Assembly (NCBI RefSeq): GCF_000003815.2
Contig: NC_049988.1
Coordinates: 12,485,516 to 12,549,515 of the forward strand
DNA: 64,000 nucleotides
Source: Branchiostoma floridae
Taxonomy: Eukaryota > Chordata > Leptocardii > Amphioxiformes > Branchiostomatidae
Direction of reading: 5' to 3'
Under the pieces are notes generated by a model. It was not told the DNA's origin, made no database searches, and saw only the letters and a program-made list of their open reading frames with translations. Made by a program: the position numbers and the translations under genes. Positions 5,201-63,292 of this stretch are shown here, piece by piece (within the stretch, counting starts at the first letter, position 1; each line of letters opens with the position of its first letter).

Positions 5201-8200
5201 TCCCTTGGGGGGTATTAATGTCAAACATGGCATTCCCACATGGACATGCATGACCCTTTGGATTAAATAGGAGTTTTCAATCAAATCATGGAAGAAAGAT
5301 TTTGTGATTCAATTTGAATACATGCTGATGTAGCAAAGAAACCAATGTTGATTATTACTGCAGACTGCATAGGAAATAGGAGCATTTTTATTTGCATTCA
5401 GGGTGCTTTGTGTGGTCACAAATTGCCCTTGTGTTTTCTTGGTCATGTACTGTCTTTTACAAAATTTCTTTGCAGTACTGTACTCTTTTTAACTTGCCGC
5501 CAGCAGTTATGATTATAGTAGTTGAGGGTATATATTCTTTAATTCTCACAGGTGGGGATTCTGCTGTTCATATATGATTTATCTAGTCTTTCATCCCAAG
5601 ATTAATGAATGTCATCGCTAGAAATAAGAAAAATCATAGTCTTTAATCATAGGTAGAAAGTTTGAATGTGCAGTTGATACTTGATAAGAATGATGATGCT
5701 ATTATATTTTTGGCAGTGGTATCTACATGTAGCTTGTGAGTGTATGAGTTAAAGATACATGACTATATATCATATAATACAAAACTAAATCAAGATACAT
5801 TTTTCATCACTGCATATTGGTTATCTACTAACATCTAGGAATTTTAAAAACTACCTTGAGGCTTGCAGACTGACCTACCATGTTCCATGTCGGTGTTCAC
5901 AGAAAGTTGAAAAGCTGTATGATATTGATTATGCTAACTGCAAGTACTTATTCAAGAGGCCTCACACAGTTCATCTGATTTTCGATCTGTGTCTAGATAA
6001 GTGGCACACCAGGGAAGATAACCGTAGTTGCTGCGTAAAGTAGAATCAAGGGGGAGGAATCATCAATTTGAGTCCAACTGTGTCAAACTGGTAGCGTGCG
6101 TAGTCCAGTGTTTAGCGGCCCTGTGTCTGAAACTAAACCTAGAAGCCATGAATTCAATTCCAGCTGTGTTGCTCACCCAACATGTATGCTACTGGAAAGG
6201 GTTGCAGTCCTTAGGACAGGACGTTAAGCCGTGGTCCACCGTTCATTGTGGTTGTCGAAAAGAGCCAGGGGAATTTCTCCAGCACAATTAACCTGTAAAT
6301 ATTACACATTCATGTAGCATCTGTCCTCTCTGTCATGACCAGTGGAAGCTCTTCAGTGAACTAAAAGTGGATCGAGATCACTTTCCTTTCCCTTTTTTCA
6401 AAATTTCGTATCCTTTCCTCACAGGTGTTCTTGAGAGAGCGGCTGGAGTGTGAGCTAGAGAAGAGAAGAGAGGCGGAGCTGCACCGGGTGGCAACCATCA
6501 TCCAGGCAGGGTTCAAGGGTCACCAGGCCAGGAAACAGTTCCACAGGGCCAAACAGAGCATTGTTGTCATCCAGAAGAACTACAAGGTTGGCAGGAATAT
6601 TGTTATTTTGTACCAAAAAAACTGAAGTGAATGCTGTAAACAAAATTGGAAATCCACTATCTCAAACTGGCTTTGACCATTGAGTAGACAGGATTGTTAT
6701 TGTCAGTTCAGCACTAAGGACAGGGATATCATTTATCTTAGCATAACTATTAGGGATGTTTTTGGTAGTGCAATACCAAAGAGGATGATAGTTCTGTTAG
6801 TTCAGCACCAAGGACAGGGATAGTTTTGTTAGTTCAGCACCAAGGACAGGGATAGTTTTGTTAGAGTTGAGTATACTACCAAGGACAAGGATATTTTTGT
6901 AAGATCAGCACCAAGGACAGGGAATGTTCTGTTATTGAAGCACCATGGACAATGATATGCATCCAGTACGAAAGTTTGATGATGACTTTTGAGTAGGAAA
7001 AGATACGAAAGTATGGTCTATCATAATGTCTTACTGTTTAAATGACTTCCTCCCATTTCAGGCCCATTTCTGGAGGAAGGCGTTTGTCCAGGTCCGACAG
7101 GCGACCGTTACCCTGCAGAAGTTTGAGCGCAGCCGGCGAGCGCGCCACCTGCTGGAGCGGCTGCGGGAGGAGAAACGACAGGAGGAGGAGCGGCAGCACC
7201 AGCTGCGAGAGGAGGAGAGGAGGCAGAGAGAGGAGGAGGAGAAGGTTAAAGAAGAAGAAGAACGAAGGTAAGAGATGTGTCAGATTCTTCAGTAAACAGT
7301 AGAGTGGATTCATCCCTCAAGCTACCAACATCTTGTAGTCGTCCCTCAGAAAGACATCTGGAGCCACATAGTTTAACTTTTATTCAGCCTGTCGGCCAAA
7401 CTAGTTTCGCTATGTAGATGTGTCAGATTATTTGTTGGATTAATACAAGTCTAATACACAATTATATCTATTGAGTAGGATATTGGAGATTTCTTTTGCA
7501 CAACCGGAATGGCTCTTACCTGCTGACGTTTTGATGTCTCCGAGCTTTCTGTGTGCAAAAGAAATCTCCAATATCCTATGATCTACCAACTTCATCAACT
7601 CATGCTCAAAAGTGCTTTACTAGTTGCTTACACATATACACAGGGCCAAACTTTTATACACCTCTCGCACTGTTGTCACTTTTTGTTCAGATATTGAAAC
7701 TTCTCATCATGAGGTTTCAGAAATCTAAGGAACTTCATAATACATATAAAACTAGAAAGGTAATATTTGCAAGCAAATACAGAATGTTACCTTCACATGG
7801 TTTAGTCTAGCATTTCTACCTGGAAGGGTAAACTGATTAAGTTGCAGATGTTGACACAGGATAAGTCAAGACATGCAAGAAGGTACAAATAAATTTTGAT
7901 GATTTTTTATCTGTAACGTTATACATCTTGAATAATGAACACAACGTCCAATATTGTTCCAAACAGGGTTTCTCATCATCATCTCATCACAGTAGCCATA
8001 GCTACAAGCCACAGGGGCAGTCTGTCTGTCCAAAAAGGTTATCCATTTCTGACGGTCGTCAACAGGGTTTACTCGACGACATTTAGCGTGTCGTCTGCGG
8101 GAGCGTCAAGGCCTATGATTTTTTTTCGGCTTGGGGAGGTCCAGGGAGAAATTTCTTGGCTTGCGGAGAGAGAGCCATGGAAAAAAAACTGGCTTCCTTC

Positions 8201-53816: not shown

Positions 53817-56800
53817 TCAGAACACAACTTGTGGTCTGAAGTGTGTTTGGAACTTGTTGCTCCTGACGCCCATCTGCATACGTTGTTTGGACTTGAGTTT
53901 CTGAACAAACTGCATGTCACGAACCTTCTTCTGTGCAGCCTCTCCTGAAAAGAACAAAACAACTTTGTTTACACTTTATTTCAAGGAAAATGCAGGCAAA
54001 CACTAGTCACTACCTACTATTGGACAAGGGAATTAGAAAGAAATCAACCACTTTTATGTACCAGAAATAACCTGTCCTGAACTTGTGGAGTCTTCAATGT
54101 TTTCAACCAACTTTGTAATGCCACAACAGATATGCATTTGGTGGAGAAGCAAAGGACAAATGTTAACCTTAACCAGTTACCTCCTGAAAATGTTTTATGG
54201 TGTTCCTCATTAAAAGTAACACAGTCAGCATAATTGGCCGAGTGTGGGTTGCAGCAGAGGAGTCAATCTTGCACAAAAACGAACCACCAAGTCACAATGA
54301 AGACTCGCAGTTGCCAACTGTGCATAAGCAGCATTCACACAAAATTTAATTCTCTCTTTATAAGCCTTCTCAGTTCTGGTAATCCTACATATGTTCTACA
54401 GCATACACATCAAGGACTTTTGAAACATACATTAAAATGTTTGAAACATGTGCTTTCAATTCACATTTTTCAATAAATGGAACTAAGACATGTGTTTACC
54501 AAATAGTACGGTGTAACCTTCAACCTGCCGCGCCTTCTGGTACCAATGGTCACAAGAGTTAAGTATGATATTTCAAGGAGCAATCTACAGTTTACAATGA
54601 CTGTGTATGTCTTACCATAGTCTCCCTTCCATCCCAGTGCCTTGTACTGTGCCATGAGTCTGCCCACTGCCTCCCTACCCGAGGTCCTGTGGCTCATGGA
54701 TGGTATCAGGTTCTGTCTCCAGTATCTCTGCAGGGCCCGATGGCCAATTCTGGATCCTACAGTAGAACAAAATCATCTGATCAGAGTCTAATAACTACAC
54801 TTTCTCAACAAGGAAAATGTATATTAAACTGACACTGTATATGTGTAAAAAGGCAGACAAGAGAAAAGCATTTTTACTAAGTTTCTACACTCAAAACGTG
54901 GTCTAAGGATTTTAAAATGCCAGTAGACGTTGGATACTCCATCAAAAAGATTTCTTTGTGGACCATTGTTTTCACCTATTCACATCTTTTCACAAACAAT
55001 TAGGTCCAGGTTCTGGTCTGGACCTGGACTGTACCTGGATTTTCTGTTCAGGTAACCACTCCTAGTGTTCACACGTTTTCTAACACTATGCTATATAAAC
55101 ATACACTGACCTGAAGGAAGTACAAGCTGTGTTTCGTCATCTGTGACTCGGAGTTCCTCCTTCTCCACTGGTTCTTCCTCCTCCTCCTCTCCTCCTGCTG
55201 CTCCCTCTGCCTGGTAGTCAGGGTAACTCTTCCTGTAAGAGTAACAGTTTTGTGTTTGGTCAATGATGAAAGGTTCTAACAGTGTTCTAGTTTTATTGTC
55301 CTGAATTGGAGTGACACTGCTACTGTGAATGGTACATGAAAAACTCTCTTTACTTAAAACAAGGAAAGAATGGAAGGAAGTACAGACAAGAATTTGGTTG
55401 TACTTTGATATGAATGACTGATGTTGTTCCTCATTAAAAGTAACACAGTCAGTATTGTAGGCTGATTGTGGGTTGCAGCAGAGGAGTCAATCTTGCACAA
55501 AAACGAACCACCAAGTCACAATGTAGACTGGCAGTTGCCAACTGTGCAGAAGTTACAACTGTTTATTCCTACACTTTTAACCAAAAATGCAAGCCAATGT
55601 AATGTCTGAATACTGTATCTGTTAAAGCACTTTTGATAAGAATTTCTCACAGCCTCTCACCTGAAGTCATAGAAGTCAGCATACTCCAGCATGGCCTCCC
55701 CCTCCATCAGCATCTTGGTATGACCCTTGTCCCTCATGTGGCCCTGTGCTGCCTCCAGACTGTAGAAGGTTCTCCCCTTCTCATTACAGTATAGGCAGAA
55801 AAAAGCACCTCCCACCTTCTCTCCTGTTGATACATGCAATTGGAAATACAATTTCCACATGGCTACATACTGATTTAAGGGCAAAAACTTTGTGTAAATG
55901 TACATGCTTATTGCAAAGTTACTTTTCTGTCTTCAGTGTAACAGGGCTCGAAATTCATTTTTGGGATTAGGTGCACTGGTGCACCCAGCTTAAAAGATTG
56001 GGTGCACCAAAAAAATTTTGGGTGCACCACTTAAATTTAAGTAGAATGTCAAAAAACCTAATAGCAAAACTTAGTTATAAGCTATCAAATGCTGAAACAA
56101 GTAACATGACAGACATTTTTATCATCTTTCTAACACTTAGATGTCAAGAATATGATGTATACTAGTATACTCGATATCTTTCCATACATAAACCTAAGAA
56201 AATATTTGGGTGCACCCTGTGCACCCACTGAAAAAAATTGGGTGCACAGTTCCAATTTTGGGTGCACCTGGGTGCACATGCACCCAGTATTTCGAGCCCT
56301 GGTGTAATCATAGTGACTTCGTATACATGCTACAGTTAAGATACTTATTCTGCCATCAATGTAATCATACATTTTTAAGTTCAACAGGATGGGGTGAGTA
56401 GACAGGCAGGACTATGCTTTGTTTTTCCTAATAAGAATCCTACATTCATAATAAAACCAGATCCCCAACATAATAATTTCTTCAATAATAACTTCTTCAG
56501 TGTCAAAGACGAAAGATAATGGATGTTATCTGAAATGTCTTGATCATTTCCAAAATCATACCCAGTTGCTTGAGTAACCGCTTTTTGGCGTATAACATAT
56601 ATCTTCACATGCATCACTATAGCTGGAGCCAATTAAAATAGACTTTTACAAGTATGTTTCTTGTTTAAATGATAGCTGAAGATCTTACCCAGATATCTGA
56701 TGAGTCCTTCCAGATCTGCTAAGTACTCCACATCTGGTATGTAGAAACTGTGCTCCACCGTCATGTGCTGCATGTTGTTGTCTAAGCTGTCCCCCTCCCG

Positions 56801-58588
56801 TGCACAGAACAGACACTGTTTCTCTGTCAGAGGAGTGCCGGGGTAGTCCACTTCCTCCTCAGAGGAATCCTCTATCTCCATCTCCTCGTCTCCTCCTATA
56901 ACTTCCTCCTCATCTTCATCTTCCCATTCTCCTGATAAAACAATGATTATACCATCAATAAGGATAGTAATAACTTAGCGACGTAGTTAATGATGTGGGG
57001 TTGTGGGCCAAGGACGTTATGGGGGACAGAGATGTCTGGAAAGAGAGAGTGGACTCGCCTGTGATGATGATGATGTATATGTGTAGTACATTTGTTTGTA
57101 ACTTTGTATGTAAACCACCATGAAGTAAATTTGATAATCATGTAAAATTGCAATCGACTTCCTTTAAGTAATACATGATGAAGGTTGATGAAGAAATCAC
57201 TTTTCAGGCATACCTTCATCTTCATCATCAGGTTGAGATCTTGACCTCTGTGATGACCTGTGACCTCTGCCCCTGAGCTGCCTGATTGCCTCCACCTTGG
57301 CAGGGTCCAGACTGTTGACCTTCCTCTTGACCGGGCCTGGGGACTTTCTGGCCTCAGCTAAGGCCTTGTTTACTGTGTCCTTCTGGGCTCGCTCATGGGC
57401 TACGTCATAACCCTTCTCTCTGTTCTTCTGATTTTGTTTCTCCACCTCTGATTGGATCTGACAAACAGATGTATGGGAAACTTTTAGTACAAGACTACTA
57501 TATAAGTATGAATCATTGAGATGCTTACAGGCTGTATCAACGAGCACCAACTTCAAATATTGATTGTTCTTGGTGGACTAGCAAGGAATAGAAAAACTAG
57601 CTGTAGCTCCAGCCAACTCCTTGATAAATGTTTAATGATATGGTGTTCCTCATTAAAAGTAACACAGTCAGCATTATAGGCCGATTGTGGGTTGCAGCAG
57701 AGGAGTCAATCTTGCACAAAAACGAACCACCAAGTCACAATGTAGACTGGCAGTTGCCAACTGTGCAAAAAGCTATTTGATGTCTCAAACTATTTGAATA
57801 TGTTATATAGTCTCACCTTCTGCACCTGTTTAGCCTCAGTTTCCTTGTGCTTTTTGGATTTCATGTGGTTTTCAAAGGCATTCTGGGTGTTGAAGAACTT
57901 CTTACAGATAGCACACTGAGAACAAGTCTCCCTCTCTGACTCTGCAACCTGGGAATGCAGAGTAGCATACAGAACTTTTCACCAGTATGGTATTGGCCCC
58001 ATCTATTTATACATTTAAATGTGAAAGATTTGCTCAATGTATTCTTCTCATCAATGCCAAAAAGCAGTTACTCAAGCAACAAAATCAGACGTTGCCGATA
58101 GTATCCATTGAGTACTATCTGAAATGTCCGACCATTTCCAAAACCATATCCAATTGCTTGAGTAACTGCTTTTTGGCATATCTTATTACCTGGATGTTTA
58201 TAGACTGGGTACCATCCGATTTCTTACGGGGTTCCTTGCACTTGCTTCCCTAAAAAATCTTAAGGGTACCAAGTGCAAGGAGCCCGGTAGAAATCGGATG
58301 GTATGGTACCCAGGCTAGGATGTCGAACCTTCATTGATGTAATACTTTTCATCATTTCCCACAAGATAAAGGGGGAATCATCCTACGCTTGTCTACAAAT
58401 GTTGGCCTTTAGTTTACCTGTGCTTTCTGTGCCATCACTCTCTGCTGAAAGTTTTCAGCGGTGACTGGCGGCAGTTCCGCCACCTTTCTCTTCAGGTTGT
58501 ACCTGTGCCAGTCGGACTTGTAGTGAGCACGCTGCAGGTCCGCTGACGCAAACGCCACACGGCACGATATACAGGTGAATGAAGACAT
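53817..58588 (-). CDS. ZNF622: Zinc finger protein 622 (REI1/REH1 family)
   Basis: The yeast homologue REI1 is a cytoplasmic 60S maturation factor that helps recycle ARX1; ZNF622 also interacts with MELK/ASK1 in mammals. Eight exons (58,418-58,588; 57,817-57,948; 57,214-57,457; 56,689-56,931; 55,661-55,823; 55,111-55,232; 54,616-54,756; 53,817-53,944) join in phase to 447 residues (human 477). Finger 1 is CISC..RAHYKSDWHRYNLKRK at the N terminus; finger 2 CAIC..FENHMKSKKH; an acidic stretch (EWEDEDEEE) follows; finger 3 CLFC..MQHMTVEHSFYIPD; finger 4 CLYCNEKG..GHMRDKGH. The conserved tail has ADFYDFR, GSRIGHRALQRYWRQN, LMAQYKALGWKGD and FRPQVVF. The order of all four C2H2 fingers and the tail matches the family. 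Confidence 0.97.
54198..54324 (-). ncRNA. Candidate H/ACA snoRNA, copy A (ZNF622 intron 7)
   Basis: The 127-nt element is read on the host strand. Hairpin 1 closes TGCACA/TGTGCA with an upper stem CGAGTC/GACTTG. A hinge AGATTG follows (one base off ANANNA). Hairpin 2 closes TCCTC/GAGGA with an upper stem related to AACCCACA/TGTGTT. ACA then lies three bases from the 3' end (GAGGA-ACA-CCA). The change of C to G in the hairpin 1 stem, relative to the other copies, keeps pairing through G-U. Confidence 0.75.
55422..55548 (-). ncRNA. Candidate H/ACA snoRNA, copy B (ZNF622 intron 5)
   Basis: It has the same 127-nt length and layout as copies A and C, ending GAGGA-ACA-ACA. The hairpin 1 upper stem is CCAGTC/GACTTGG with one bulged T. 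Differences from copy C lie mainly in the hairpin 2 apical loop and the base after the ACA box. Confidence 0.75.
55942..56301. mobile_element. hAT-like MITE with GGGTGCAC subterminal repeats
   Basis: The ends CAGGGCTCGAAATTC and ATTTCGAGCCCTG are inverted repeats. GTGTAA occurs directly outside both ends (six exact bases, perhaps an eroded 8-bp duplication). About ten GGGTGCAC/GTGCACCC words cluster within 120 bases of the two ends. It lies in ZNF622 intron 4 and encodes nothing. Confidence 0.8.
57641..57767 (-). ncRNA. Candidate H/ACA snoRNA, copy C (ZNF622 intron 2)
   Basis: 127 nt, sense to the host. From the top of the hairpin 1 pocket to the hinge is 16 nt, and from hairpin 2 (after GACTGTGTT) to the ACA box is 14 nt, both within the 14-16 nt spacing rule for H/ACA guides. 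The pocket strands GTTGGCAACT/GGTTCGTTTT and TGCTGC/ACTTTTAAT are the predicted guide segments. Confidence 0.78.
58065..58345. repeat. Palindromic repeat interrupted by a foldback element
   Basis: The dispersed repeat (AAAAAGCAGTTACTCAAGCA to TTGCTTGAGTAACTGCTTTT) continues as TTATTACCTGGATGT, is broken, and resumes as GATGTCGAACCTTCATTGATG. The break is the hairpin element at 58,203-58,316. Structure matches the intact copy at 40,069. Confidence 0.8.
58203..58316. mobile_element. Nested foldback element (TAGCCTGGGTACCATCC)
   Basis: TAGACTGGGTACCATCCGAT at the left mirrors ATCGGATGGTATGGTACCCA-GGCTA at the right. Inner blocks TCCTTGCACTTG / CAAGTGCAAGGA pair as well. Flanks GGATGTTTA and GGATGTCGA match at 7 of 9, suggesting a 9-bp duplication. 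Confidence 0.8.
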
Positions 58589-58600
58589 GCTTTCAACTGG

Positions 58601-59230
58601 AGGTACAAGAAGACACTAATTAGAAAAAGATGTCGGTGTTAATTCTCACCAAACTCCCAGACATGCTGTAGTATCGAGGTGTGGTTTGTCTTCTTAACAT
58701 AACATCAAGCAAGCAAGTTCTACAGATATATATACAGTGGTCAAACTTTCCTGCGCTTTCAATCTACCACTTTCTTGTGTGCAAAACTGACTTTCAGTAA
58801 ACGCTATAATTTATTGATTTTTATCATCTCATAACTGTGCTGAACAAAGGAAGCAAAAAGGAAAGAAAGGTAAGAAAGACATGCAGGTGTGTTGCATCAT
58901 AACTACGACAATTAGAATACAGGATATATGATGCCCTACAAGACGTCTTCGTGGGGCAAAAAGCACAGAAGTTTTGCAAAATTACTGAGTATGTTCTCCC
59001 AACGAGCCATGGTTCTCCACACGTGTGCATAAATTATTTACTGAACACTACAGGCCAGGCCTCTCTATAAATAGCCTTAAGATGAAAACCTGTTCACCCT
59101 TTAGTATCTCTAGAACCTTAAACGATGTCCTACCACTTACCGTCTTCCTTAGGTTTTGATAAATTTAGCCGTAACTTCTTATTTTAGTCCACACCTCCTT
59201 CTTGCAGTCATTTGCGCAACTTTGCCCCTT
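58601..59230 (-). other. ZNF622 5' UTR intron and first exon (inferred)
   Basis: On the minus strand a donor GACG|GTAAGT at about 59,140 and an acceptor ACCTCCAG|TTGAAAGC ending at about 58,601 would splice a UTR exon 13 bases before the ATG. The UTR exon probably begins near 59,200-59,240. This is inferred from splice motifs only. Confidence 0.5.
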
Positions 59231-59732: not shown

Positions 59733-59832
59733 NNNNNNNNNNNNNNNNNNNNNNNNNNNNNNNNNNNNNNNNNNNNNNNNNNNNNNNNNNNNNNNNNNNN
59801 NNNNNNNNNNNNNNNNNNNNNNNNNNNNNNNN
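59733..59832. other. Assembly gap (100 N)
   Basis: Exactly 100 N, the usual placeholder for a gap of unknown size. It ends inside the RPL37A first intron as inferred. Confidence 0.99.
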
Positions 59833-59853
59833 TGATACAGTACATGACAGAAT

Positions 59854-62602
59854 TTTTATCATCTTTCTAACACTTAGATGTCAAGAATATGATGTATACT
59901 AGTATACTCGATATCTTTCCATACATAAACCTAAGAAAATATTTGGGTGCACCCTGTGCACCCACTGAAAAAAATTGGGTGCACAGTTCCAATTTTGGGT
60001 GCACCTGGGTGCACATGCACCCAGTATTTCGAGCCCTGGTGTAATCATAGTGACTTCGTATACATGCTACAGTTAAGATACTTATTCTGCCATCAATGTA
60101 ATCATACATTTTTAAGTTCAACAGGATGGGGTGAGTAGACAGGCAGGACTATGCTTTGTTTTTCCTAATAAGAATCCTACATTCATAATAAAACCAGATC
60201 CCCAACATAATAATTTCTTCAATAATAACTTCTTCAGTGTCAAAGACGAAAGATAATGGATGTTATCTGAAATGTCTTGATCATTTCCAAAATCATACCC
60301 AGTTGCTTGAGTAACCGCTTTTTGGCGTATAACATATATCTTCACATGCATCACTATAGCTGGAGCCAATTAAAATAGACTTTTACAAGTATGTTTCTTG
60401 TTTAAATGATAGCTGAAGATCTTACCCAGATATCTGATGAGTCCTTCCAGATCTGCTAAGTACTCCACATCTGGTATGTAGAAACTGTGCTCCACCGTCA
60501 TGTGCTGCATGTTGTTGTCTAAGCTGTCCCCCTCCCGTGCACAGAACAGACACTGTTTCTCTGTCAGAGGAGTGCCGGGGTAGTCCACTTCCTCCTCAGA
60601 GGAATCCTCTATCTCCATCTCCTCGTCTCCTCCTATAACTTCCTCCTCATCTTCATCTTCCCATTCTCCTGATAAAACAATGATTATACCATCAATAAGG
60701 ATAGTAATAACTTAGCGACGTAGTTAATGATGTGGGGTTGTGGGCCAAGGACGTTATGGGGGACAGAGATGTCTGGAAAGAGAGAGTGGACTCGCCTGTG
60801 ATGATGATGATGTATATGTGTAGTACATTTGTTTGTAACTTTGTATGTAAACCACCATGAAGTAAATTTGATAATCATGTAAAATTGCAATCGACTTCCT
60901 TTAAGTAATACATGATGAAGGTTGATGAAGAAATCACTTTTCAGGCATACCTTCATCTTCATCATCAGGTTGAGATCTTGACCTCTGTGATGACCTGTGA
61001 CCTCTGCCCCTGAGCTGCCTGATTGCCTCCACCTTGGCAGGGTCCAGACTGTTGACCTTCCTCTTGACCGGGCCTGGGGACTTTCTGGCCTCAGCTAAGG
61101 CCTTGTTTACTGTGTCCTTCTGGGCTCGCTCATGGGCTACGTCATAACCCTTCTCTCTGTTCTTCTGATTTTGTTTCTCCACCTCTGATTGGATCTGACA
61201 AACAGATGTATGGGAAACTTTTAGTACAAGACTACTATATAAGTATGAATCATTGAGATGCTTACAGGCTGTATCAACGAGCACCAACTTCAAATATTGA
61301 TTGTTCTTGGTGGACTAGCAAGGAATAGAAAAACTAGCTGTAGCTCCAGCCAACTCCTTGATAAATGTTTAATGATATGGTGTTCCTCATTAAAAGTAAC
61401 ACAGTCAGCATTATAGGCCGATTGTGGGTTGCAGCAGAGGAGTCAATCTTGCACAAAAACGAACCACCAAGTCACAATGTAGACTGGCAGTTGCCAACTG
61501 TGCAAAAAGCTATTTGATGTCTCAAACTATTTGAATATGTTATATAGTCTCACCTTCTGCACCTGTTTAGCCTCAGTTTCCTTGTGCTTTTTGGATTTCA
61601 TGTGGTTTTCAAAGGCATTCTGGGTGTTGAAGAACTTCTTACAGATAGCACACTGAGAACAAGTCTCCCTCTCTGACTCTGCAACCTGGGAATGCAGAGT
61701 AGCATACAGAACTTTTCACCAGTATGGTATTGGCCCCATCTATTTATACATTTAAATGTGAAAGATTTGCTCAATGTATTCTTCTCATCAATGCCAAAAA
61801 GCAGTTACTCAAGCAACAAAATCAGACGTTGCCGATAGTATCCATTGAGTACTATCTGAAATGTCCGACCATTTCCAAAACCATATCCAATTGCTTGAGT
61901 AACTGCTTTTTGGCATATCTTATTACCTGGATGTTTATAGACTGGGTACCATCCGATTTCTTACGGGGTTCCTTGCACTTGCTTCCCTAAAAAATCTTAA
62001 GGGTACCAAGTGCAAGGAGCCCGGTAGAAATCGGATGGTATGGTACCCAGGCTAGGATGTCGAACCTTCATTGATGTAATACTTTTCATCATTTCCCACA
62101 AGATAAAGGGGGAATCATCCTACGCTTGTCTACAAATGTTGGCCTTTAGTTTACCTGTGCTTTCTGTGCCATCACTCTCTGCTGAAAGTTTTCAGCGGTG
62201 ACTGGCGGCAGTTCCGCCACCTTTCTCTTCAGGTTGTACCTGTGCCAGTCGGACTTGTAGTGAGCACGCTGCAGGTCCGCTGACGCAAACGCCACACGGC
62301 ACGATATACAGGTGAATGAAGACATGCTTTCAACTGGAGGTACAAGAAGACACTAATTAGAAAAAGATGTCGGTGTTAATTCTCACCAAACTCCCAGACA
62401 TGCTGTAGTATCGAGGTGTGGTTTGTCTTCCTAACATAACATCAAGCAAGCAAGTTCTACAGATATATATACAGTGGTCAAACTTTCCTGCGCTTTCAAT
62501 CTACCACTTTTCTGTGTGCAAAACTGACTTTCAGTAAACGCTATAAATTTAATGATTTTTATCAACCCCAAAACTGGGCTGGAACAAAGGAAGCCAAAAA
62601 GG
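59854..62602 (-). pseudogene. Second copy of ZNF622 exons 1-4 (probable assembly duplicate)
   Basis: The contig between two 100-N gaps matches 56,117-58,865 at a constant offset of 3,737, introns and MITEs included. Copied exons are at 62,155-62,325, 61,554-61,685, 60,951-61,194 and 60,426-60,668, all open and identical in frame. Exons 5-8 are absent. Mismatches concentrate in the last ~100 bases before the right gap. It is more likely an unmerged haplotype contig than a real paralogue, so no separate gene should be inferred. Confidence 0.85.
61378..61504 (-). ncRNA. H/ACA snoRNA copy C in the duplicated contig
   Basis: This matches 57,641-57,767 at a constant offset of 3,737. It belongs to the probable assembly duplicate and should not be counted as a fourth locus. 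Confidence 0.6.
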
Positions 62603-62702
62603 NNNNNNNNNNNNNNNNNNNNNNNNNNNNNNNNNNNNNNNNNNNNNNNNNNNNNNNNNNNNNNNNNNNNNNNNNNNNNNNNNNNNNNNNNNNNNNNNNN
62701 NN
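62603..62702. other. Assembly gap (100 N)
   Basis: Exactly 100 N. It, or the gap at 59,733, must hide the middle RPL37A exon or exons. Confidence 0.99.
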
Positions 62703-63023: not shown

Positions 63024-63292
63024 GAAAACATGAAGAGGAAGTCTGTTGGAATCTGGTCCTGCAAGAGCTGTAGGAAGACCATTGCCGGCGGGGCCTGGGT
63101 GTACAGGTAATCTGACTTGTCTTGTTGAGCTTGCAAAGATTTCATTTTGCTTAGTGCTTCAAAGCTAAAATGAGTAGACTCAAAGTATCTTGGATATGAA
63201 AGGGTTTTTATTGTATCTTACATTACAGCACAACAGCAGCAGCCACAGTACGGTCAGCGGTGAGACGTCTGCGTGAGTTGAAGGAGCAGTAA
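63024..63292 (+). CDS. RPL37A: 60S ribosomal protein L37a (eL43), last two exons
   Basis: eL43 is a small zinc-ribbon protein of the large ribosomal subunit. Exons 63,024-63,106 and 63,229-63,292 join in phase to the last 48 residues: ENMKRKSVGIWSCKSC, then RKTIAGGAWVYS, then TTAAATVRSAVRRLRELKEQ and stop. CKSC is the second half of the zinc-binding cysteine set; the first pair lies in the missing part. The family protein is 92 residues, so about 44 N-terminal residues are absent because of the assembly gaps, not gene decay. An AATAAA follows at 63,414-63,419. Confidence 0.95.

Follow-up and report, generated by a model that had tools for sequence, protein, structure and literature searches.

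The introns of the ZNF622 gene of the amphioxus Branchiostoma floridae very likely encode divergent homologues of the box H/ACA RNA SNORA40, copied within ZNF622 and once elsewhere in the genome, which are predicted to guide two rRNA pseudouridines. We describe these RNAs by their sequence, fold, Rfam similarity, genomic location and guide-target fit, starting from the window, that is, the whole 64,000-nucleotide stretch of contig NC_049988.1 that was analyzed.

The three 127-nt elements that the original prediction had assigned to the host strand, one per ZNF622 intron, are all present (copies A, B and C in the table), lying in sense orientation within three different introns. Relative to copy A, identity is 93% for copy B and 96% for copy C. 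The introns around them are unrelated, as had also been claimed, since BLAST homology among the three ends after 129-136 bp. The identity of the host was borne out by the joined exons, which match ZNF622 in the PDB (E 2.9e-120), and zinc-finger Pfam domains were found above the cut-off in three of the five exon translations scanned. The proposed RPL37A neighbor was recovered as an RPL37A-like gene at 63027-63289, placed with a query sequence that we take to be that of RPL37A. The count of three copies stands for A, B and C, but the window holds a fourth, copy D, which had been overlooked. Copy D is identical to copy C and lies within a 2770-bp segment (59833-62602) bounded by 100-N gaps (59733-59832 and 62603-62702), which makes assembly duplication the probable explanation; the segment is 99.4% identical to 56093-58861. 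In a search of 513 Mb the element was found at five genomic places (all five candidates were scored), repeat counts being lower bounds that strongly diverged copies would escape, and a SINE or dispersed repeat with hundreds of copies is therefore ruled out. The proposed class of paralogous, intronic, non-SINE H/ACA guide RNAs is supported.

Table. Host gene, element copies and guide features (window coordinates unless another contig is named)
Feature	Position	Strand	Description
ZNF622 host gene	53817..58588	-	Start-to-stop coding limits, one set of eight exons; ATG and stop read
Copy A	54198..54324	-	SNORA40-like H/ACA RNA, ZNF622 intron 7 (~53945-54615, splice-site reading)
Copy B	55422..55548	-	SNORA40-like H/ACA RNA, ZNF622 intron 5 (~55233-55660, splice-site reading)
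Copy C	57641..57767	-	SNORA40-like H/ACA RNA, ZNF622 intron 2 (~57458-57816, splice-site reading)
ACA box, copy C	57644..57646	-	RNA positions 122-124
3' guide arm UACUUUU, 3' pocket, copy C	57655..57661	-	RNA positions 107-113; first base 15 nt from ACA
5' guide arm UGCAAC, 3' pocket, copy C	57691..57696	-	RNA positions 72-77
Copy D	61378..61504	-	Letters identical to copy C; probable assembly duplicate
Fifth copy	contig C6:6545726-6545844		87% identical, outside the window contig

On the minus strand, the minimum-energy folds of copies A, B, C and D comprise a hairpin with a terminal stem, then a hinge, a further hairpin that carries an internal loop, and an ACA tail, which agrees with the hairpin-hinge-hairpin architecture predicted for each element on the host strand. 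Fold z-scores were -1.73 for copy A (10 of 200 shuffles folding at least equally well), -1.86 for copy B (8 of 200) and -2.80 for copy C (1 of 200); the fold energies alone are modest evidence, and the z-scores of copies A and B are weak. When copies A and B were folded on the plus strand, copy A folded poorly (z -0.13) and copy B well (z -2.16); fold energy thus does not decide the matter, and the plus-strand reading was rejected because of the orientation of the host, the place of the ACA and the Rfam matches. The ACA stands three nucleotides from the 3' end in all five copies, as predicted, and the 3' pocket lies 15 nt from it, inside the range of about 14-16 nt expected of box H/ACA snoRNAs. 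The hinge reads AGAUUG in each of the five copies, none of which has the H box consensus ANANNA there; it is one base off, the final A being G, just as had been noted. Deviant H boxes occur among accepted snoRNAs.

The top Rfam family for all four window copies, on the host strand, is SNORA40 (ACA40, RF00561), with 29.4 bits for copy A, 31.3 for copy B and 32.9 for both copy C and copy D. All four matches span the full length of the model (positions 1-128 of 128); in searches of 221 bases, E was 0.0016 for copy A and 0.00026 for copy C. Since the scores fall below the curated gathering score of 51 bits for SNORA40, a scan of the elements at Rfam cut-offs reported no family. A genome-wide family search gave no better than E 0.33 for one copy, with the threshold set where 5 of 14 control genomes also produced a hit.

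The 3' pocket is predicted, by complementarity only, to guide 18S U1107. Across 413 uridines of this genome's 18S and nine pocket registers, U1107 was the best site, with 6+7 pairs, and the Rfam SNORA40 consensus, scanned in 16 registers, also placed it first in 18S (9+3 pairs). The same site is present in all three 18S copies examined, among nine 18S places found. In the chosen register, 77/107, itself the best of the nine, a fit of at least 3 pairs per side occurred at 2 of 535 scanned uridines, namely 18S U1107 and one uridine of a 28S fragment. The runner-up 18S site in the nine-register scan, U595, scored 26 (7+5 pairs, register 76/108) vs 28 for U1107. With the register fixed, none of 1000 dinucleotide shuffles of 18S matched the U1107 score; in the nine-register scan, 4 of 300 plain shuffles did. 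Reversed and antisense 18S gave at most 16 and 14, respectively, against 28, and none of 20000 guide shuffles reached the observed fit. We take U1107 to correspond to human U1174 (offset 67).

Among 122 uridines scanned in the 28S fragment, the 3' pocket fits a single one, the U in GAAGUG-U-UGUUGC; most likely, we assume, it is human U4546, an identity that depends on the numbering used. The 28S sequences are fragments, and six places were found, all from the second fragment query and none from the first; in the 4 distinct places examined GATGAAGTGTTGT is present, one of them (L023) with a one-base difference inside the guide-paired part. The published targets of SNORA40 are 18S U1174 and 28S U4546. 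U1174 is listed as such in PMC8881200, and in PMC2653536 the 3' pocket of a chicken counterpart of ACA40 is directed to 18S-1132, equated here with U1174, an 18S site alone being given in the passages on ACA40.

For the 5' pocket the highest 18S score was 23, at U244, closely followed by sites scoring 22 and 20, and the highest in the 28S stretch was 25, with lopsided arms (3+9), so that no distinct target was found for it in the scanned 18S and 28S stretch; the 5' hairpin probably serves as a scaffold.

The original prediction had suggested that the family may be undescribed. We do not favor this, as SNORA40 is the best match in Rfam and its 18S target is ranked first by the 3' pocket among the 18S uridines scanned; the family has probably been described already. 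A new H/ACA family confined to amphioxus, with no relationship to SNORA40 and alike in architecture by chance, would accommodate the score under the Rfam cut-off, the location in ZNF622, which is not the vertebrate SNORA40 host, and a 5' hairpin largely unlike the SNORA40 consensus, but is improbable in view of the full-length match, the conserved terminal stem (UGCAC/GUGCA), the shared GCAACCCA around the 5' guide arm of the 3' pocket, and the same 18S uridine being put first by consensus and amphioxus copies alike. SNORA40 and the amphioxus RNAs further agree in length, in their hairpin-hinge-hairpin-ACA layout, in their fit to the U1174 equivalent and probably in a second fit in 28S, whereas the amphioxus copies differ in their lower score, in the H box AGAUUG and in a 3' guide arm reading UACUU in place of UACAU. 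JOSD3, the human SNORA40 host, also goes by the name TAF1D. Unlike the amphioxus copies, three of which sit in introns of the single gene ZNF622, SNORA40 has another host in vertebrates, given as JOSD3 for human in PMC2653536. Among the matches listed in mainly open literature on amphioxus snoRNAs, SNORA40/ACA40 and ZNF622 snoRNAs, titles and abstract openings held no account of these amphioxus RNAs that we recognized.

For divergent SNORA40 homologues, we infer expression, processing, RNP assembly and rRNA modification itself along the following lines. The RNA would have been copied inside ZNF622 and once to another genomic place; each RNA would be released from the spliced ZNF622 intron and bound by dyskerin, NHP2, NOP10 and GAR1, and its 3'-hairpin pocket (UGCAAC/UACUUUU) would pair with rRNA around one uridine, either of the two predicted sites. 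The ribosome-linked role that had been suggested is supported through the predicted rRNA targets, but not through ZNF622 as host. One base of the guide seems to have changed in step with the 28S base that it targets: we propose that vertebrate UACAU pairs with 28S AUGUG and amphioxus UACUU with 28S AAGUG, and that the amphioxus arm also fits 18S AAGUA, with more pairs. On balance we lean toward a history in which one H/ACA pocket has retained two targets, one per ribosomal subunit, from a time before amphioxus and vertebrates diverged, its 3' arm co-evolved with the rRNA, and the RNA changed host gene and was triplicated in ZNF622. If true, the SNORA40 family would extend to a chordate outside the vertebrates, with two specific rRNA sites that can be tested, curated family cut-offs would be shown to overlook real homologues at such distance, and the arm would illustrate on a small scale how a guide and its rRNA target change together. 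This is no new kind of system.

The G-U rescue proposed for a stem change in copy A was not reproduced, the change in column 19 breaking a pair in the counted structure. Pair 86-98 is variable, reading G-U in two sequences and A-U and G-C in one each, and a two-sided change occurs in one of 35 pairs (C-G to U-A, in the fifth copy); covariation is at chance, 128 of 500 shuffles reaching the observed level, and is uninformative. In the fifth copy the U at guide position 110 is missing and the guide fits less well (6+3). Its minimum-energy fold is not H/ACA-like, and SNORA40 did not match it even with E values of up to 1 allowed; exon-like stretches examined for its host had no Pfam match above the cut-off (one reached Spectrin_5 at E 0.063) and no convincing PDB match. 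The existence of several copies, one of them with disrupted stem pairs and a poorer guide, could suggest that the copies are non-functional snoRNAs or belong to a mobile repeat. We consider this highly improbable, as the element occupies five genomic places and copies A, B and C have all preserved their guide arms, ACA and sense orientation despite unrelated flanks. Homology to SNORA35 (RF00566), the runner-up, which shares the H/ACA architecture and matches weakly end to end (23.8 bits for copy A, 21.6 for copy C), can be dismissed almost entirely, as SNORA40 scores higher by 5.6 and 11.3 bits, respectively, and the 18S target that the pocket fits is that of SNORA40.

The elements in the ZNF622 introns are a real feature, which the original prediction classed correctly as H/ACA-type snoRNAs, and they are most likely homologues of the described family SNORA40 (ACA40; Rfam RF00561) rather than of an undescribed one, as had been suggested. 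Reading the letters confirmed the three 127-nt elements on the minus strand (copies A, B and C), and a DNA search of the whole 513-Mb genome with copy A returned five places: these three, a further copy in the window (copy D) and one on contig C6 with 87% identity. The introns around A, B and C are indeed unrelated, with BLAST homology stopping at 129-136 bp, and each has its 3' splice site ~180-255 nt downstream of the element. The proposed host also holds, as the joined exon translations match PDB ZNF622 at E 2.9e-120 (REI1 at E 1e-46 in the same search); three of the five exon translations scanned contain zinc-finger Pfam domains that pass the cut-off, and the expected RPL37A-like gene adjoins ZNF622. 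Such an arrangement, with one host gene carrying copies in more than one of its introns, is described in PMC2653536 as cis-duplication.

Positions of the elements and neighboring features (window coordinates unless a contig or stretch is named; introns from splice sites read from sequence; L005 and L025 are other stretches of the same genome)
Feature	Position	Strand	Place	SNORA40 bits	Fold z
Copy A	54198-54324	minus	ZNF622 intron 7, sense	29.4	-1.73
Copy B	55422-55548	minus	ZNF622 intron 5, sense	31.3	-1.86
Copy C	57641-57767	minus	ZNF622 intron 2, sense	32.9	-2.80
Copy D	61378-61504	minus	second segment	32.9	-2.80
C6 copy	C6:6545726-6545844 (L005 1493-1619)				
First segment	56093-58861				
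Second segment	59833-62602				
Inverted repeat	58210-58303, 61947-62040				
67-bp repeat	56527-56593, 58116-58181		two ZNF622 introns		
Stretch rich in GGGTGCACC	55955-56300		intronic		
28S fragment with 18S-like piece	L025 5993-8501 (piece 7874-8173)		C4		

Copy D does not differ from copy C in any letter, and it lies in a segment that is 99.4% identical to the first (2.77 kb) and flanked exactly by two 100-N gaps. Because this segment also repeats the first four ZNF622 exons, present in both segments by exon translation, copy D is probably a duplicated contig, that is, an assembly duplication and not an additional gene copy.

All four window copies have the anticipated predicted fold, a hairpin-hinge-hairpin-tail in which the ACA lies three bases before the 3' end, and their energies are modestly better than those of shuffles. 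Folding the plus strand left copy A unstructured (z -0.13) and gave structure for copy B (z -2.16); because copy B folds on this strand too, energy alone leaves the strand unsettled. A count of base pairs across the four copies that differ in sequence gave no covariation signal, with one two-sided change in 35 pairs, matched by 128 of 500 shuffles. That change, C-G to U-A in the lower stem, is carried by the C6 copy, which keeps the ACA; some of its other pairs are broken, and its minimum-energy fold is not the same. Its 3' guide arm is altered to UACCUCU.

The covariance-model search gave a divided answer, with no match in the window at Rfam curated cut-offs and SNORA40 as best family at an E-value threshold. 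These host-strand matches span the whole model, with E 0.0016 for copy A and 0.00026 for copy C in searches of 221 bases. All window copies score below the SNORA40 gathering score of 51; SNORA35 (RF00566) came second (23.8 bits for A, 21.6 for C), and SNORA40 did not match the C6 copy even when values up to E 1 were allowed. A family search of the whole genome, in which 48 of 95459 candidates were scored, listed copy B alone (E 0.33), at a threshold loose enough that 5 of 14 control genomes also rang. Further SNORA40 may therefore exist elsewhere in the amphioxus genome. As the SNORA40 match is sub-threshold, independent support was needed.

Such support comes from the 3' pocket, scanned against a full-length 18S of the same genome (1795 nt; 413 of its 420 U far enough from the ends). 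Over nine registers U1107 ranks first for copy C, with 6+7 pairs (2 of 13 G-U) and a score of 28 vs 16 for reversed and 14 for antisense 18S. Plain shuffles reached this score in 4 of 300 cases in the nine-register scan, and dinucleotide shuffles in 0 of 1000 at register 77/107 (5' arm ending at RNA position 77, 3' arm starting at 107), itself picked by that scan. U595 follows closely in the nine-register scan of the 18S in L018 (26; 7+5 pairs, one-base-shifted register 76/108) and is a possible additional target. The Rfam SNORA40 consensus also places U1107 first (9+3 pairs, 16 registers), and the site is identical in all three 18S copies examined, out of nine places found. U1107 is presumably human U1174, since the human position of the hypermodified U1248 sets the offset between the two numberings at 67. 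SNORA40 targets are listed in PMC8881200 as 18S U1174 and 28S U4546, with helix 27 named as its 18S site region, and a section of PMC2653536 assigns two chicken ACA40 counterparts to 18S-1132, one via the 3' pocket (7+4 pairs), the 28S site not being among those given there.

The sequence after 18S reads N in both L018 and L019, and the search for 28S yielded a fragment as its best place. Within 500 nt of this fragment, GAUGAAGUG-U-U-GUUGC holds the one uridine of 122 scanned that fits register 77/107 (6+6 pairs, three G-U), and it is also first over nine registers in the 1200-nt stretch around the site. GATGAAGTGTTGT is present in all four distinct 28S places examined, out of six found; one (L023) differs at the next base. 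Counted on the sequence, 77 nt separate the uridine from the upstream G in the A-loop UUGUUC. We take this G to be 4469 in the older human numbering, which makes the uridine 4546 and so the site published for SNORA40. In human the sequence here is presumably GAUGAUGUGUUGUUGCC, and substituting the human letter lowers the amphioxus guide from 25 to 20 and raises the SNORA40 consensus from 22 to 26. This swap is of the kind expected of a compensatory change in guide and target, but it depends on one base and on the presumed human sequence.

The rRNA scan favored the 3' pocket, with 18S U1107 and one 28S uridine, and not the 5' pocket, for which 18S and the incomplete 28S offered several weak, near-equal sites, none standing out. 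The 5' hairpin is probably without a target, or its 28S target may lie outside the incomplete 28S sequence. The RNA would be freed from the intron after splicing, assemble with the dyskerin complex and direct pseudouridylation of U1107 (helix 27) and the 28S uridine. Because the scores fall below the Rfam cut-off and the copies have no exact H box, we file the elements as a SNORA40-like homologue that is predicted to work as SNORA40 does, and do not count them as certified by Rfam.

Several other features were noted. The 28S fragment in L025 contains a piece matching 18S (70.5 bits) and is scrambled rDNA at a distance from the complete 18S genes. The imperfect inverted repeat (84%) resembles a hairpin of the MITE type; its Rfam matches, to MIR7504 and mir-3116, are weak and do not reach the cut-off. 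The 67-bp repeat (88% identical) is possibly part of a mobile element. The stretch rich in GGGTGCACC resembles, by eye, an element with terminal inverted repeats.
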